This document shows, piece after piece, positions 4,293 to 11,526 of a DNA stretch of 15,667 bases (position 1 is its first letter; every line of letters begins with the position of its first letter). Source of the DNA: Candidatus Aminicenantota bacterium (GTDB lineage: Bacteria > Acidobacteriota > Aminicenantia > JAMOAD01); NCBI GenBank assembly GCA_027061995.1, contig JAMOUT010000008.1, positions 1-15,667 on the forward strand, written 5' to 3'. The notes under the pieces are model-generated. The model did not search any database and was not told the origin of the DNA. It worked only from the letters and a program-made list of their open reading frames with translations. The translations under genes and the position numbers were made by a program.

Positions 4293-4586
4293 ATGGATAT
4301 AATAGAACAAAGAATTAACGAGGAGGCTCGCAAAAGGAGAAAAAAACCCGCTGCAAAACCTCACTCTGTTATTATCAAGGAGCAATACTGCAAGGGTTGC
4401 TCTATCTGTGTTAATGTATGTCCTACAGGGGTTCTTATTATCGAGGAAACTCCAAAATCAATATTCGGTCTTATCGCCAAAATTGACAAACCAGATTATT
4501 GTATAGGTTGTATGCTTTGTGAGTTGCATTGTCCCGATTTTGCAATTATTGTTGATTATGAAAAAAGGAAGGTGGATGATGAGTGA
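4293..4586 (+). CDS. korD: 2-oxoacid (2-oxoglutarate-type):ferredoxin oxidoreductase delta subunit
   Basis: A 97-residue 8Fe ferredoxin subunit. Two complete CxxCxxCxxxCP motifs bind two [4Fe-4S] clusters: C33/C36/C39/C43 and C70/C73/C76/C80. It passes electrons from the thiamine-diphosphate centre in KorAB to an external ferredoxin. A basic 25-residue N-terminal arm (KRRKK) precedes the first motif, as is common in KorD proteins. It is the first gene of korDABC, and its last codons overlap the korA start by 8 nt (4579-4586), implying coupled translation. The start ATG is 5 nt after TAAGGAG. Confidence 0.9.
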   Translation: MDIIEQRINEEARKRRKKPAAKPHSVIIKEQYCKGCSICVNVCPTGVLIIEETPKSIFGLIAKIDKPDYCIGCMLCELHCPDFAIIVDYEKRKVDDE

Positions 4587-5706
4587 AGTTAAAATCAGGT
4601 CGGGAAATGAACTTGTTGTTGAAGGAGCTATAGCCGCCGGTTGTAAAATTTTCGGGGGATACCCAATAACTCCCTCTTCGGAGATTGCCGAAGGGATGGC
4701 AAGAGAACTTCCCAAGGTTGATGGTCTTTTTATTCAGATGGAGGATGAACTTGCAGCGATGGGAGCTGTTATAGGGGCTTCTCTCGGTGGAAAAAAAGTA
4801 TTGACTGCTACAAGTGGTCCCGGATTCTCTTTAAAGCAGGAAAATCTCGGTGTTGCCATGATTGCTGAGGTTCCTGTTGTTATTGTTAATGTTATGAGGG
4901 GTGGTCCGAGCACGGGATTGCCTACAAGAGGAGCTCAAGGAGATGTTATGCAAGCAAGATGGGGAACTCACGGTGATCATCCTGTAATAGCTCTTGCACC
5001 GGCTTTTCCGGAAGAGGTTTTCACAACCACAATTGAAGCTTTTAATTTGGCTGAAAAATATATGACACCTGTTATATTACTTCTTGATGAAATAGTAGGT
5101 CACTCTCATGAGCCTGTTGAATTACCGAAAGAGGGAGAATATGAAATTATTAATAGAAAATACCCTGATAAAGTTGAGGATTTGGCAATCTATAAAAGAG
5201 AGATGGGTGAACCTCCGCTAAGACCGGATTTTTTTATGGGATATCCTATTCATGTTGAATCTCTTGAACATAGTGATCAGGGGTATCCTAATACAGTTCC
5301 CGAAAATGTTGAAGTTCAACAAAAAAGAAGATTGTTAAAAATTGAAAACCATAAAAATGAGATAATAAAATATAAAACACATTTTACCGATGATGCGGAA
5401 TTAGTAATTTTTGCTTTTGGTTCCATGGCAAGGTCAGCTCTTGAAGCTATAAAACTTTTAAGAGAGGAAGGGATAAAGGTAGGACTTTTCCAACCCATTA
5501 CAATTTGGCCTTTTCCCGAGGAGCAGTTAAAGGATGTTGTTAAAGATAGAGATACACTTGTTGTGGAGCTTAATTGGGGGCAACTGATTTATGAAGTTGA
5601 AAGAGTTCTTAAAGATAATAAAGTTCATTCTCTTTTAAAAATGACGGGAATGGCGATAACGCCCAATGAAATTATCGACAAAATTAAGGAGATTAAAAAT
5701 GCTTGA
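4579..5706 (+). CDS. korA: 2-oxoacid:ferredoxin oxidoreductase alpha subunit (KorA type)
   Basis: A 375-residue alpha subunit that binds substrate and CoA partners in the oxidative decarboxylation of a 2-oxoacid to acyl-CoA with reduction of ferredoxin. The motif GYPITPSSE is at 27-35; T31 is the substrate-carboxylate-binding threonine conserved in pyruvate and 2-oxoglutarate oxidoreductases. The following TSGPGFSL and PTRGAQGD...RWGTHGD segments are typical of 2-oxoglutarate-type enzymes, but branched-chain or other 2-oxoacids cannot be excluded from sequence alone. ATGs at 4576 and 4579 are adjacent; I use 4579 because AAGG at 4569-4572 is 6 nt away. Much longer upstream starts lie inside korD and lack ribosome-binding sites. 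The gene overlaps korD by 8 nt and korB by 8 nt. Confidence 0.93.
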   Translation: MSEVKIRSGNELVVEGAIAAGCKIFGGYPITPSSEIAEGMARELPKVDGLFIQMEDELAAMGAVIGASLGGKKVLTATSGPGFSLKQENLGVAMIAEVPVVIVNVMRGGPSTGLPTRGAQGDVMQARWGTHGDHPVIALAPAFPEEVFTTTIEAFNLAEKYMTPVILLLDEIVGHSHEPVELPKEGEYEIINRKYPDKVEDLAIYKREMGEPPLRPDFFMGYPIHVESLEHSDQGYPNTVPENVEVQQKRRLLKIENHKNEIIKYKTHFTDDAELVIFAFGSMARSALEAIKLLREEGIKVGLFQPITIWPFPEEQLKDVVKDRDTLVVELNWGQLIYEVERVLKDNKVHSLLKMTGMAITPNEIIDKIKEIKNA

Positions 5707-6514
5707 TTATGAAAAATATCTGAGATATAGAACTTTTCCGGTGCCATGGTGTCCCGGGTGTGGTATAGGAATGATTTTTAAAGCTGTTGCCATGACATTT
5801 TCAAAACTTGAATGGGAGCCGAATGATATAGCGGTTGTTTCGGGTATAGGTTGTTCTGGAAGATTATCGACCTATTTTAATACGAATTCACTACATACAA
5901 CGCACGGAAGAGCTTTAACTTTTGCAACCGGTGTTAAATTATCCAATCCCGATAAGCATGTTGTGGTTTTTTCAGGTGACGGAGATGCTCTTGCAATAGG
6001 GGGAAATCATTTTATTCATGCTTGCAGAAGAAATCTTAATATGAAAATGGTGGTTATAAATAATAATATTTATGGGATGACAGGTGGTCAGGTATCACCA
6101 ACAACACCAACCGGATTTATTTCCACAACAACCCCTTATGGAAATACGGAGCCCCATTTTAATACTGTTGAACTTGCAAAAGCTGCGGGAGCTACTTATG
6201 TTGCAAGGGAAACGGTTAACCGTCCGAGACAGCTTCTGAAAGTTCTGGAAAAAGCTTTTAAACACACCGGATTTGCTGTTGTTGAAGTTATCTCCAATTG
6301 CCATATTAATCTCGGAAGAAGAAATAAATTAAAACATCCTATTCCGATGCTTGATTGGATAAATCAACAAACCATCCCCATTGCAAAAGCTAAGGATATG
6401 AGTGAAGATGAGCTCGAATTAAAATATGTTGTCGGTGAATTTGTTCATAGACACAGACCCGATTATTTTGAAGTTTATGAAAATAAAGTTGTGAAAAAAG
6501 CAAAAGGAGAGTGA
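5699..6514 (+). CDS. korB: 2-oxoacid:ferredoxin oxidoreductase beta subunit, thiamine diphosphate-binding (KorB)
   Basis: A 271-residue catalytic beta subunit. The thiamine diphosphate motif runs from G93-D94-G95-D96 to the NNNIYGMTGGQ segment about 25 residues later. Four cysteines suited to its [4Fe-4S] cluster are present: C18 and C21 (WCPGCG), C52 (GIGCSG) and C201 (SNCHINLG). With KorA it forms the active site that cleaves the 2-oxoacid; electrons leave through KorD. The ATG at 5699 follows AAGGAG (5687-5692) by 6 nt and overlaps the korA stop by 8 nt. A longer in-frame start at 5666 lies inside korA and would add 11 residues not typical of the family. The gene ends 1 nt before korC. Confidence 0.93.
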   Translation: MLDYEKYLRYRTFPVPWCPGCGIGMIFKAVAMTFSKLEWEPNDIAVVSGIGCSGRLSTYFNTNSLHTTHGRALTFATGVKLSNPDKHVVVFSGDGDALAIGGNHFIHACRRNLNMKMVVINNNIYGMTGGQVSPTTPTGFISTTTPYGNTEPHFNTVELAKAAGATYVARETVNRPRQLLKVLEKAFKHTGFAVVEVISNCHINLGRRNKLKHPIPMLDWINQQTIPIAKAKDMSEDELELKYVVGEFVHRHRPDYFEVYENKVVKKAKGE

Positions 6515-6515
6515 T

Positions 6516-7052
6516 ATGAAAAATAGATATGAGGTTAGATTAGCAGCCGTAGGAGGGCAGGGGTTGATTACAGCCGGAGCTCTTCTTGCGAAAACAGCCA
6601 TAAATAAAAAACATATGTATGCTACACAAAGTCCGACATATACATCACAAGTCAGAGGGGGGCCTACAAAAGTTGATGTTATAATTGATAAAGATCCTAT
6701 TCTATTCCCTCAAGCGGTAAGTATAGATCTATATTTTGCAACAGCTCAAAGATCTTTTGATCTATATTATAGAAGTATAAAAAGAGATGCGGTTATTATA
6801 GTGGATTCCGATTTGGTAACAAAACTCCCTGAGGGAGATAATCATAAGATATACAAAATACCTCTTACAGCGGAAACTGTTAAACAAATAGGAAATATCG
6901 TTGTTGTATCCGTTGTTTCACTCGGAATCGTTACAAAATTATCCGATTTATTTACAAAGGAAGAGGTTAAAGAGATTGTTCTTTCTTCGGTTCCAAAAGG
7001 AACGGAGGAGATAAATCTTAAAGCACTTGATCTTGGTTTTAGTTTAGTATAA
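6516..7052 (+). CDS. korC: 2-oxoacid:ferredoxin oxidoreductase gamma subunit (KorC)
   Basis: A 178-residue gamma subunit. The N-terminal GGQGLITAG loop (13-21) and the [13 protein letters not shown] segment define the family, which helps bind CoA and completes the oxidoreductase. Length and motifs are normal. It follows korB with a single-base gap and uses an AAGGAGAG ribosome-binding site lying in the korB end. It completes the D-A-B-C gene order usual for the four-subunit 2-oxoglutarate-type enzymes of anaerobic bacteria and archaea. Thi4 follows 16 bp later. Confidence 0.92.
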
Positions 7053-7068
7053 ACAAAAGGAGAAAAAT

Positions 7069-7845
7069 ATGAAACTTGATGAAATAACAATATCCAAAGG
7101 CATAATTGATATCTATTTCAGGGATTTAAAGGATTCATTGGAAAGTGATGTAATAGTTGTTGGAGGAGGTCCCGCCGGATTGACGGCGGCATATTATCTT
7201 GCAAAAGCCGGCAAAAAAACAGTCCTTCTTGAAAGAGCGTTAAAGATAGGGGGAGGAATGCCCGGTGGCGGAATAATGTTTAATAAGATAGTTGTTCAGG
7301 AAAGTTCAAGATTCATTCTCGATGAATTTGATATAAATTATGAAGAGTATGAAAAAGGGTATTATATAGCATCATCGATAGAATCAACGGCGCAGTTAAC
7401 CGCAAAAGCCGCAAAGGCAGGTGCAAAGATTTTTAATCTTATAAGTGTTGAAGATGTAATGATAAGAGGAGATCAGATTACCGGAGCGGTAATAAATTGG
7501 ACAGCGGTTCAAATGGCAAATCTTCATATAGACCCTATAACAATGAGGTCAAAATACCTGATAGATGCAACAGGTCATGATACCGAGATAGTAAAAATAG
7601 TTGAGAGAAAGATAGAAGACAGGTTATTTACCCCCACGGGGAAAATAATGGGAGAAAAATCCATGTGGGCTGATAATGCCGAGAATATCATAGAGGAGCA
7701 TACTAAAGAGGTGTATAATAATTTATTCGTATGCGGGATGGCGGCAAATGCCGCATTCGGAGCACCGAGAATGGGTCCAATATTCGGAGGGATGCTATTG
7801 TCGGGTAAAAAAGTAGCCGAACTTATTATAGAAAGAGATAACTAA
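7069..7845 (+). CDS. thi4: Thi4-family thiazole synthase, His-type (sulfide-dependent)
   Basis: A 258-residue enzyme that makes adenylated thiazole carboxylate from NAD+ and glycine for thiamine synthesis. The N-terminal Rossmann loop is [12 protein letters not shown] (30-41), with E55 binding the ribose, then [13 protein letters not shown] and the C-terminal [13 protein letters not shown] cofactor segment. The residue corresponding to the suicide sulfur-donor cysteine of yeast Thi4 is H153 here (ANLHIDP). In archaeal and anaerobic homologues this His form is catalytic and takes sulfur from free sulfide with Fe2+. The usual W in the GGGMWGGG loop is proline. It is cotranscribed with korDABC (16-bp gap, AAAAGGAG 5 nt before the ATG), linking cofactor supply to a thiamine diphosphate enzyme. 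No other thi gene is nearby. Confidence 0.9.
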
Positions 7846-7914
7846 GAGTTAGGATAAAACAATAAGCAGAAATATCATATAAAAAAAATCCATAATTAAA
7901 TATTTGTCTAAAAC

Positions 7915-7946
7915 TTGACAATATAACCGAAATATGATTTTATAAT
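7915..7946 (+). promoter_or_regulatory. Candidate promoter of the biotin-carboxyltransferase operon
   Basis: A perfect TTGACA lies at 7915-7920 and a perfect TATAAT at 7941-7946, but the spacer is 20 bp, longer than the 16-18 bp optimum. TATGAT at 7933-7938 is an alternative -10 that would be too close (12 bp). The 132-bp gap after thi4 and the consensus -35 favour a new transcript starting here. No terminator hairpin after thi4 is obvious, so read-through is possible. Confidence 0.45.
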
Positions 7947-7977
7947 TGACTAAATTATGATAATTTTCGGAGGAATT

Positions 7978-9528
7978 ATGAGAAAAAAACTTGAATATCT
8001 TTTTGAGAAAAAATCAAAAGCCATGAAAGGTGGCGGAGAACAGAGGATAGAAAAACAGCATAATATGGGTAAATTAACGGCAAGAGAGAGAATAGAAGTT
8101 TTGACTGATCCCGGGTCATTCATTGAAAACAATTTTTTTGTTGAACATAGAACAAATGATTTTGGAATGGGAAAGAAAAAGTTTGAAGGGGACGGAGTCA
8201 TAACCGGCTTTGGTAAGATAAACGGCCGCCCTGTAGCTGTGTATGCTCAGGACTTTACTGTCCTCGGAGGGTCTCTCGGAGAGATGCACGGGAGAAAAAT
8301 AGCTTCATTAATGGATCTTGCAATTCAAAACAGAGTTCCGATTATAGGGCTTAATGATTCCGGTGGAGCGAGAATACAGGAGGGGATTAAAAGTTTGGCA
8401 AGTTACGGAGATATTTTTTACAGGAATACGATTGCTTCGGGGGTTGTTCCCCAAATATCGGTTATTATGGGACCTTGTGCAGGGGGAGCAGTTTATTCAC
8501 CGGCTATAACTGATTTTGTATTTATGGTTGATAATTCTTCATATATGTTTGTTACCGGACCTCAGGTTATTAAGACTGTTACAAAAGAGGATGTAACTTT
8601 TGATGAACTTGGCGGTGCTGAGGTTCATTCAAATGTTTCGGGTGTTTCCCATTTTGTTTATGATGATGATGAAAGAGCATTAAAAGGGGTTAGAGAATTA
8701 TTGTCTTTTTTACCGCAGAATAACAAGGACTTTCCTCCGATTGCGGAATATGATTTTTCAAGTGAAGAGAATGAAGAAATTAGTGAATTAAGAGAGATAG
8801 TTCCGGTTAATCCTAATAAACCTTATGATATGAAAGATGTTATAAATAAAATTGTTGATCAGGGGTATTTCTATGAGGTTCAAAAGCATTATGCTTCAAA
8901 TATAATAGTGGGGTTAGGAAGAGTTGCGGGGATATCGGTTGGTATTGTAGCGAATAATCCTCTGAGTTATGCGGGAACGATAGATGTTTTAGCCTCGCTT
9001 AAAGCATCAAGGTTTATTAGATTTTGTGATTCTTTTAATATTCCCCTTATTACCCTTGTTGATGTTCCGGGGTTTTTACCCGGAAAGGATCAGGAGCATC
9101 AGGGGATTATTAAACACGGTGCAAAACTTTTATATGCTTATAGTGAAGCTACTGTTCCGAAATTAACGGTTATACTGAGAAAAGCTTACGGCGGGGCATA
9201 TATTGTTATGTCTTCAAAGCATCTTGGTGCTGATGCGGTTTTAGCATGGCCAACTGCTGAAATAGCTGTTATGGGACCGGAAGGGGCTATCAATATAATT
9301 TTCAGAAAAGAGATAGCGGCGGCGGAAGATCAGGAAGCGGAAAGAAAAAGACTGATAGAGGTATATAAAGAAAAATTTGCAAACCCTTATATGCCTGCAT
9401 CTCTCGGTTATGTTGATGAAGTTATTGATCCGGCTAAAACAAGAAGTTCTTTAATAAAATATCTTGAATATACTATTACAAAAAAACAGGAACGACCATG
9501 GAAAAAACATGGGAACCTTCCTTTGTAG
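7978..9528 (+). CDS. Acyl-CoA carboxyltransferase (propionyl-CoA carboxylase beta / MmdA family)
   Basis: A 516-residue carboxyltransferase of the crotonase fold that moves CO2 between carboxybiotin and an acyl-CoA. Both oxyanion-hole glycine pairs are intact: G129-G130 (NDSGGARIQEG, acyl-CoA carbonyl) in the N-terminal half and G405-G406 (AYGGAYIVM, biotin ureido) in the C-terminal half. The N-terminal KLTARERIEVLTDPGSF and the end KKHGNLPL are standard for the PccB/MmdA branch, so propionyl-CoA/methylmalonyl-CoA is the likeliest substrate, although acetyl-CoA or others remain possible. The start ATG 7978 is 4 nt after GGAGG; an earlier in-frame ATG at 7957 would add seven residues and lacks a site. 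The biotin-carboxylase-like gene follows after 9 bp, with its ribosome-binding site overlapping this stop. Confidence 0.93.
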   Translation: MRKKLEYLFEKKSKAMKGGGEQRIEKQHNMGKLTARERIEVLTDPGSFIENNFFVEHRTNDFGMGKKKFEGDGVITGFGKINGRPVAVYAQDFTVLGGSLGEMHGRKIASLMDLAIQNRVPIIGLNDSGGARIQEGIKSLASYGDIFYRNTIASGVVPQISVIMGPCAGGAVYSPAITDFVFMVDNSSYMFVTGPQVIKTVTKEDVTFDELGGAEVHSNVSGVSHFVYDDDERALKGVRELLSFLPQNNKDFPPIAEYDFSSEENEEISELREIVPVNPNKPYDMKDVINKIVDQGYFYEVQKHYASNIIVGLGRVAGISVGIVANNPLSYAGTIDVLASLKASRFIRFCDSFNIPLITLVDVPGFLPGKDQEHQGIIKHGAKLLYAYSEATVPKLTVILRKAYGGAYIVMSSKHLGADAVLAWPTAEIAVMGPEGAINIIFRKEIAAAEDQEAERKRLIEVYKEKFANPYMPASLGYVDEVIDPAKTRSSLIKYLEYTITKKQERPWKKHGNLPL

Positions 9529-9537
9529 GAGAAAATA

Positions 9538-11007
9538 ATGGAAAAATATCTTATAGCAAACAGAGGTCTTGTTGCAACTTCTTTTATCAAAACCTTAAAT
9601 AGACTGAATAAAAACTCTTTTTTAATATGTTCGAAAGAGGAACTTGATTATTATCCCCCTTTTATCTCGGATAATCTTATTTTGGTTGATACCCATTTTA
9701 CACGATATCTTGAGGATGAAGATCTTCTTATTAAAGTATTGGTTAATAATGGAATAGAAGGCTTTATCCCTGGATACGGTTTTAAATCTCAAAACTCTCT
9801 TTTTGCCGTAAAATGTAAAAAAAACGGGATAAGATTTATAGGTCCCAAACCTGAAAAACTTGAGATTGCATCAAATAAATCAAAGATGAAAGAGATTGCG
9901 GCTCTTAATTTCATCCCTGTTGTTAAAGGTTCTACAGAGATAAAAAATCTGGATGAACTTAAAAAACATGTTGAAAACCTGAAATTTCCCATTATTTTAA
10001 AACCTGTAAATGGTTGGGGGAGTCATAATATAAAGCTTATTAAATCAAAAAGCTTATTAGAGCAAGGATATAACTCTTTCATGAAGAAGATGCAAGCAAT
10101 TAAGGGATACTATCAAAAAACATTCTTGGCCGAGGAATTTATTGAAGAGATAAGAGAGATTGAGATACCGTATTTAGCTGATTGTAAAGGAAATCATTAT
10201 ATTTTGGAACCAATTGAAAATACGATTCAAAAGAATAGAAAAAAGATAATATCAGTTTCACCTGTTCCCAATATTTCTAAAAAAATTATTAATAGGATAA
10301 ATGATTATGCGGAGAAATTATTAAAGGTGATGGATATCAAAGGGGTTGGAGTTATTGAATTCTTTATTGATAATAAGGATAATATATATTTTAACGAGAT
10401 TAATCCGACTTTACCTTTTAATTTCCCCCTGATTGAAGAGAAAAACAGAATTTCATTAACAGAGCTGTTAATAGATATTTTTGAGGGTAAAGAGGTAAAG
10501 TATCCGAAGCCTAAGGATGAGATAGTAATGAGTATTAATATTGTTGCGGAGGATGTTGAAGTGAGGGAGACAAAGGGGATATTGGATTATTTTGAGTTCT
10601 CTCCGGAAAGAAATTCATATCTCCTCCCTGTTTATCGAAAAGGCGAGAAGGTCTCTCTTCTATATGATCCGCTTGTCGGAACAATGATTGTATCGGGCGT
10701 ATCTAATGATACCATTAAAAAAACAGGGGTGGCAAATCTTGAAACTTTGGTGATATCAGGTATTGGAACAAATATAAATAATTTAAAAAGTTTATTGAAT
10801 AGTAAAAAGATATTTAATGAAAAAACAACTATTGCGGATAGTGAAGAGATTTTGAAAGAGGAAAAAAGTAATCTTGACAAAGAGAGTGTTGCAATGATTG
10901 CGGCTACAATATTTCATCAACAAAACAGAGGTAAATCCTTTAATGAAAGGTCGAATTTTATAGAAGAAAATCTATTTGATAAAATCACAAGAAAAATTTT
11001 CGGATAA
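9538..11007 (+). CDS. Degenerate biotin-carboxylase homologue (probable pseudoenzyme)
   Basis: A 489-residue ATP-grasp protein clearly homologous to biotin carboxylase: IANRG at 6-10, PGYGF at 78-82, IGPKPEK, ILKP with K155, VIEFF, and a C-terminal domain ending YDPLVGTMIVSG...SGIGTNI. By eye against E. coli AccC, most reaction residues are replaced: the glycine-rich ATP loop GGGGGRGM is N158-GWGSHNI, H209 is Glu, H236 is R234, R292 is T291, Q294 is P293, the catalytic base E296 is N295, and R338 is N334. The Mg/ATP glutamates (E276 and E288 equivalents; E287 here) and N289 remain. Biotin carboxylation by the known mechanism is therefore unlikely. A 55-residue C-terminal extension follows the domain. 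The frame is intact over its whole length, so it is not a decaying pseudogene. It sits between normal carboxyltransferase and biotin-carrier genes. Confidence 0.85.
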   Translation: MEKYLIANRGLVATSFIKTLNRLNKNSFLICSKEELDYYPPFISDNLILVDTHFTRYLEDEDLLIKVLVNNGIEGFIPGYGFKSQNSLFAVKCKKNGIRFIGPKPEKLEIASNKSKMKEIAALNFIPVVKGSTEIKNLDELKKHVENLKFPIILKPVNGWGSHNIKLIKSKSLLEQGYNSFMKKMQAIKGYYQKTFLAEEFIEEIREIEIPYLADCKGNHYILEPIENTIQKNRKKIISVSPVPNISKKIINRINDYAEKLLKVMDIKGVGVIEFFIDNKDNIYFNEINPTLPFNFPLIEEKNRISLTELLIDIFEGKEVKYPKPKDEIVMSINIVAEDVEVRETKGILDYFEFSPERNSYLLPVYRKGEKVSLLYDPLVGTMIVSGVSNDTIKKTGVANLETLVISGIGTNINNLKSLLNSKKIFNEKTTIADSEEILKEEKSNLDKESVAMIAATIFHQQNRGKSFNERSNFIEENLFDKITRKIFG

Positions 11008-11019
11008 CGGGAGGTTATT

Positions 11020-11526
11020 ATGGAATATAAATTTGAGATAAAAGGTAAAAGTTATAAGATAGAGATTCCGCTTATATCGGATCAGAAAGAAACATGTGTA
11101 AAAAGCGGAGGAAGAAAATCAAGGATTCATGTTTTTGAGGAAAGGGGGAAAATAAATAAAATTATGATAAACGGAAAACTGTATCCTGTAAAACTTATTA
11201 ATGGAAAAGACGGATATCCGGAAAAGATAATTATTGATAACAAGATTTTTCCTATTGAATTAAAGAGGGTTGATACCCTGCTTTTCAGACCTAAAAAAGA
11301 GAATAAAAAAGGGGAAGTTGTTATAAGAGCCTTTATTCCCGGTCTTATTAAAGATGTAATGGTTGCTGTGGGACAAAAGGTCAAAGAGAATGAACTTTTA
11401 CTTATACTTGAAGCTATGAAGATGGAAAATGAGATTAGAGCTCCTAAAGAGGGAATAATTAAGAATATTTTTATTAAACCCAATCAAACCGTTTATACAA
11501 AGGACAAACTGATTTCAATCGGGTGA
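11020..11526 (+). CDS. Biotin carboxyl carrier protein
   Basis: A 168-residue biotin carrier. The C-terminal biotinyl domain (about 99-168) contains EAMKMEN with K134 as the biotin attachment lysine and the usual PG.I and protruding-loop elements, so it should be biotinylated by BirA. The first 97 residues are unlike the Ala/Pro-rich linkers of classical AccB. They are beta-rich and charged, with a YKFEIKGKSYKIEI opening and two similar 15-residue segments at 46-60 and 68-82 (NGKLYPVKLI and DNKIFPIELK), perhaps a small barrel that docks to the partner subunits. GGGAGG lies just ahead of the ATG, which is 12 bp after the biotin-carboxylase-like gene. It ends the operon, converging on the glycosyltransferase with a 9-bp gap. 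Confidence 0.9.
   Translation: MEYKFEIKGKSYKIEIPLISDQKETCVKSGGRKSRIHVFEERGKINKIMINGKLYPVKLINGKDGYPEKIIIDNKIFPIELKRVDTLLFRPKKENKKGEVVIRAFIPGLIKDVMVAVGQKVKENELLLILEAMKMENEIRAPKEGIIKNIFIKPNQTVYTKDKLISIG

Follow-up and report, generated by a model that had tools for sequence, protein, structure and literature searches.

In biotin carboxylase (BC), bicarbonate is deprotonated by a strictly conserved general base, E296 (PMC11077971), and activity of the E. coli enzyme is lowered 200-fold by the R292A mutation and 100-fold by R338Q (PMC8667948). In the alpha6-beta6 holoenzymes, the alpha subunits lie outside the beta6 core (PMC4673880), and in the sodium pump, carboxybiotin is decarboxylated by the OAD_beta subunit (PMC7274780). 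No pseudo-biotin carboxylase was found in the open-access literature searched. The locus described here lies in what we call the window, i.e. the whole stretch of DNA analyzed, which is the entire 15,667-base contig C8 of a 2.36 Mb genome (G000) that is 95% complete. It encodes a carboxyltransferase (CT), a BC-like protein designated pseudo-biotin carboxylase (pBC) and a biotin carboxyl carrier protein (BCCP), with the following features:

7978..9528, + strand: CT of PccB/MmdA type (profiles and CT tree)
9538..11007, + strand: pBC, 489 aa, with BC N-domain, ATP-grasp domain, BC C-domain and C-terminal helical tail
10000..10032, + strand: K155 (the ATP lysine, E. coli K159) and the altered glycine-rich loop PVNGWGSHNI (alignment)
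10396..10422, + strand: motif EINPTLPFN, residues 287-295 (E. coli EMNTRIQVE, 288-296), with R292T, Q294P and E296N; E287 and N289 kept
10537..10539, + strand: N334, which replaces R338 of E. coli (alignment)
10609..10611, + strand: R358, where E. coli has G364; every full-length pBC has Arg here, as opposed to the Gly of canonical BC and of the sister clade
11020..11526, + strand: BCCP with an N-terminal extension of ~90 residues; ribosome-binding site GGGAGG
11419..11421, + strand: K134, the biotinylation lysine within EAMKM (sequence)

The initial annotation had described pBC as an intact, full-length gene collinear with BC, and this description held. The ORF at 9538-11007 is uninterrupted, starting with ATG behind a good ribosome-binding site (TAGGAG) and running without an internal stop, and the product is spanned by the Pfam domains Biotin_carb_N (PF00289), CPSase_L_D2 (PF02786) and Biotin_carb_C (PF02785). 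The best profiles are those of pyruvate/urea carboxylase and BC, which excludes assignment to another ATP-grasp family; against the BC equivalog models, the score is at most 208 bits, far under every cut-off. An AlphaFold model from a 52-row alignment (mean pLDDT 84, pTM 0.83), dependent on the ordinary BCs which that alignment contained, aligned with 3g8c_A, the E. coli BC holding biotin, bicarbonate and ADP (Z 46.5, 2.3 Å, 434 residues), and matched many BC structures at Z 44-48, the fold being that of a complete BC; a run with 12 distant rows (pLDDT 52) was set aside for the 52-row run. Promoter and terminator scans of the window yielded no more than shuffled sequence did, and Rfam gave no match.

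The flanking genes are normal, as had also been proposed. Intergenic gaps are ~10 bases, with a ribosome-binding site before each gene, and the CT start at 7978, with GGAGG upstream, is favored over 7957 of the longer ORF. The CT scores 804 bits with TIGR01117 and is an ordinary PccB/MmdA-type protein; its top-scoring model is MmdA (methylmalonyl-CoA decarboxylase alpha), at a score below that model's cut-off. As it encodes a CT of PccB type, a carrier that can be biotinylated and a BC-type subunit side by side, the operon has the layout of propionyl-CoA carboxylase (PCC), and by analogy the order CT-pBC-BCCP may be likened to a PCC whose alpha subunit has been split in two. In Pfam, no BT model matched the ~90-residue extension of the carrier at E up to 1. 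Both this CT and that of the sister clade described below have Ile at the position of D422 in S. coelicolor PccB, a position that governs substrate choice, so that assigning a particular acyl-CoA to the window CT would be insecure. In the MmdA encoded elsewhere in the window genome, Cys occupies this position, and the two enzymes may differ in acyl-CoA choice. Upstream on the same strand, four genes (4293-7052) encode a 2-oxoacid:ferredoxin oxidoreductase of 2-oxoglutarate type, and a Thi4 sulfide-dependent thiazole synthase (7069-7845) lies directly before the CT operon.

Residues were mapped with MAFFT against E. coli AccC, after a check of the length of that sequence and of the numbering of every key residue. 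Three alignments with different members agree, which together with the complete modelled fold excludes an alignment error. The substitutions listed in the initial annotation were reproduced exactly: T291, P293 and N295 stand where AccC has R292, Q294 and E296, leaving the bicarbonate/biotin site without its canonical residues, and in addition R338 is replaced by N334, H236 by R234 and H209 by Glu, with GWGSHNI as the glycine loop; K202 is likewise Glu. All seven ATP/Mg side chains checked are kept (K114, K155, E199, K236, E274, E287 and N289, corresponding to K116, K159, E201, K238, E276, E288 and N290 of AccC). Thus, the residues aligned with the bicarbonate-deprotonating E296, the bicarbonate-binding R292 and the biotin-holding R338 are replaced in pBC. 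Taken with the effects of R292A and R338Q and the general-base role of E296, this residue pattern means that pBC has retained the ATP half of its active site and lost the carboxylation half.

Based on these features, we postulate, with a probability of slightly better than even (about 0.52), that pBC is an ATP-binding but carboxylation-incompetent subunit, structural or regulatory, of a PCC-like complex acting as a decarboxylase or transcarboxylase. In this scheme, pBC would take the place of the BC domain of a PCC-like holoenzyme and hold the carrier and the CT together, probably with ATP bound as a structural or regulatory ligand, and would itself be unable to carboxylate biotin. The complex would then perform the CT half-reaction alone, passing a carboxyl group from an acyl-CoA to biotin, and the carboxyl of carboxybiotin may go on to a membrane decarboxylase (MmdB/OadB, encoded in most pBC genomes) or to another acceptor. 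Among the rival explanations, we rank a transcarboxylase proper first, followed by a new ATP-grasp reaction, a BC still active through an altered mechanism and, last, decay.

The initial annotation had suggested a survey of whether the same substitutions recur in homologues lying between CT and BCCP genes, and those at R292, E296 and R338 do. We searched 396 genomes of the phylum together with 34 genomes of one family of the same class (f5), sampled at one genome per species. The profile included the window copy and 11 relatives, which helped their own scores: pBC members scored 541-944 bits (541 for a truncated copy) and the window copy 621, with everything else at 354 or less, including an N-terminal pBC fragment in G408 (278 bits). 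A match from Pelagibacteraceae (L005) was by sequence the ATP-grasp enzyme PurK and was rejected as a relevant relative. Accordingly, pBC is present in 25 of the 34 f5 genomes (plus the G408 fragment) and in the window genome, and was seen nowhere else among the genomes searched; the 25 relatives exclude a private oddity of one genome. The order CT-pBC-BCCP holds in 25/25 f5 genomes, the carrier being lost to the contig end in two, and the (E)AMKM biotin motif is found in all 22 f5 operons that cover the site. Glu occupies position 296 in 27/27 canonical and 4/4 sister-clade sequences, and Asn in the window copy and 25/25 relatives, which also carry R292T/S (25/25) and R338S/T/A (23/23 covered, Ser in 21). 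K116, K159, Q233, K238, E276, E288 and N290 are invariant in the relatives and E201 is found in 24/25, while Y82, G83 and D382, along with Q294, K238 and N290, are kept in every relative covering them. The BC homodimer residues R16, E23 and R366 are lost in pBC as well.

That the replacement residues are fixed rather than drifting (E296N in all, R338S in 21/23), next to an ATP/Mg site fully kept including K238, may be read as a sign of a new ATP-grasp activity, in which the kept site would activate a carboxylate or phosphate acceptor other than bicarbonate in a pocket formed by Asn296, Ser338 and Thr/Ser292. Other ATP-grasp ligases carry Thr or Ser in the motif altered in pBC. However, the genes found constantly with pBC encode only a CT and a biotin carrier, which point to biotin chemistry, and a further divergence of the pocket in the window copy (Q294P, R338N) would be unusual for an active site; we consider this explanation unlikely.

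A sister form of BC, in the same CT-BC-BCCP operon, is encoded by four genomes of a different family (f25) within the phylum:

4794-8394 of locus L107: sister-clade BC locus; further loci are L108, L109 and L110

The sister BC shares H236F, T291P, an altered loop, A160P and Q213P with pBC and lacks R16 and R366 of the dimer contacts, but R292, Q294, E296 and R338 are all retained. Since the sister clade carries such changes with these catalytic residues in place, the alterations of H236, K202, T291 and the glycine loop would not by themselves signal lost activity. Q294P, likewise listed in the initial annotation, is private to the window copy (Q294 is kept in 25/25 relatives). R228I, E296N and G364R are common to the window copy and f5 only. 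In the CT tree, the order is (sister clade,(window, f5)), supported at 100/100 and 99/93, with the window CT sister to 21 CTs of pBC operons; these are separate from MmdA and from the CTs of ordinary BC operons. The separation of the window CT from MmdA is a counterpoint to the decarboxylase/transcarboxylase reading. The BC tree agrees, with a weaker placement of the window copy because its terminal branch measures ~4.4 changes per site, as compared with 0.02-0.3 in the relatives. By its sequence, the sister BC appears to be a natural intermediate, and the likely order of loss would be dimer contacts and loop first and catalytic residues second, and the window lineage would then have diverged much further.

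This long branch also bears on decay, i.e. a BC gene drifting toward loss after the need for carboxylation had gone. The window copy retains 52 of 122 canonical near-invariant positions (43%), and in most pairs pBC outpaces CT 2-5-fold in its evolution, both in line with decay. Against it, reading frames are uninterrupted in all full-length copies, dN/dS is well under 1 (0.025-0.23, indicating purifying selection, at 2-5 times the CT value in most pairs), the new residues are fixed across 25 genomes and none of the seven ATP/Mg side chains is missing from the window copy; we regard decay as the least probable explanation and quite improbable. The intact frames and dN/dS values also exclude a pseudogene or frameshift for the family. 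The proposal of the initial annotation that pBC was repurposed rather than decayed is supported at the family level, where the specific loss, its clade-wide recurrence, purifying selection and the full modelled fold make repurposing the better reading; for the window copy itself it is less secure, as this copy, being far more diverged than its relatives, may have undergone relaxed constraint or late decay on its own.

The complement of other biotin enzymes differs among these genomes. The window genome has ordinary AccB, AccC, AccD and AccA genes on contig C98 and a distinct set of MmdA, carrier and MmdB on contig C1. No other BC was found in 9 of the 25 f5 genomes with pBC (G012, G018, G024, G031, G038, G404, G415, G418 and G419), and AccA/AccD were not found in the five of these nine that were tested; single absences are weak evidence, given completeness of 93% for G012 (~20 contigs) and 70-93% for the others. 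Genomes lacking another BC are equally compatible with a pBC that still works as a BC, and this is a further counterpoint to the reading we prefer. Such an active BC, relying on an altered mechanism or a partner residue, would serve a propionyl- or acetyl-CoA carboxylase; being the only BC found in nine genomes, the PCC-like operon layout and the retention of Q294, K238, N290, Y82, G83 and D382 in relatives agree with it. We nevertheless deem it improbable: single R292 or R338 mutations cost 100-200-fold in activity (PMC8667948) and pBC has three such positions changed, and the window genome possesses a separate and complete AccBCD-AccA set.

OAD_beta was found in 20 of the 23 pBC genomes tested, and also in G408, as compared with 4 of the 46 remaining genomes of the class, a co-occurrence that is statistical, mostly follows family f5 and is thus confounded by kinship. 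An independent point is provided by the window genome, which has both pBC and OAD_beta, whereas members of its family (G001, G003 and G004) have neither. Because OAD_beta was not found in three pBC genomes (G410, G413 and G418), and because MmdB of the window genome is absent from the pBC operon and lies on C1, in an operon that has an MmdA and a carrier of its own, the link between pBC and the pump is statistical. The MmdB-like protein on C1 (locus L050, 2834-4525) has 564 aa, with OAD_beta at residues 193-563; the ~190 residues before it begin like a signal sequence. Many relatives likewise have OAD_beta within an open frame of 533-587 aa, which suggests an additional N-terminal domain.

A transcarboxylase proper, which overlaps the structural-subunit reading as a special case, would move a carboxyl group from one acyl-CoA or oxoacid to another with no need of ATP, as the 12S/1.3S/5S enzyme does, and pBC would form its core. 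A CT and a carrier without a competent BC are the minimal part list for such an enzyme, the Ile at the PccB D422 position is in line with it, and a PYC_OADA (PF02436, 5S-like) protein occurs in some pBC genomes (G012, G018, G024, G405, G412, G414 and others). A 5S-type partner is not general, though, since PYC_OADA had no match in the window genome (95% complete), G008, G027, G029, G033 or G034, and we hold this explanation, the first among the rivals, to be doubtful; a general 5S partner was rejected on its absence from the window genome. In G412 and G414 (loci L081 and L082), an MmdA-like CT, a 109-aa protein and a PYC_OADA protein are clustered, with a BCCP as well in L082, in a manner resembling the 12S/5S/1.3S transcarboxylase. 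In G034 (contig C119, 20294-24475), a 1662-aa frame matches BC and pieces of AccA/AccD-type CT and is perhaps a fused acetyl-CoA carboxylase.

Returning to pBC as an ATP-binding subunit incompetent for carboxylation, we also suggest, as a tentative idea to which we give well under even odds, a class of biotin-dependent enzymes in which BC has turned into a non-catalytic subunit that senses ATP and so gates a carboxyl transfer or decarboxylation needing no ATP; whole genomes would then retain working biotin chemistry without any functional BC. If pBC is what we postulate, the ATP-driven half of BC function can be retired while the body of the enzyme is retained, and a natural series from intact BC through the sister clade and pBC to the window copy would be at hand for following the order of site loss. 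It would also call for caution in annotation, as family-based calls would credit such genomes with ATP-driven synthesis of malonyl-CoA or methylmalonyl-CoA despite the missing key residues.

Among known systems, pBC resembles BC (AccC, or the BC domain of PccA, MccA and PycA) in its collinear, full-length fold, with Z 46.5 to 3g8c_A, in its ATP/Mg residues and in its operon place beside a CT and a carrier, but differs in lacking R292, E296 and R338 as well as the dimer residues R16, E23 and R366, and in staying, at 208 bits or less for the window copy, under every BC equivalog cut-off. With the alpha6-beta6 propionyl-, methylcrotonyl- and geranyl-CoA carboxylases, the operon shares a CT of PccB type and a carrier extended N-terminally where the alpha subunit has its BT domain; in contrast to them, the BC-type subunit and the carrier are encoded by two genes, and the BC is apparently incompetent. 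The MmdA/B/C sodium pump and the 12S/1.3S/5S transcarboxylase likewise combine a CT and a biotin carrier without BC, and the window genome has MmdB, yet neither of these enzymes includes a BC-like subunit and the MmdABC set of the window genome occupies the separate locus on C1. Plant BADC, a noncatalytic relative of a biotin-enzyme subunit, aids complex assembly (PMC11926652); BADC is carrier-like, whereas pBC has the fold of BC.
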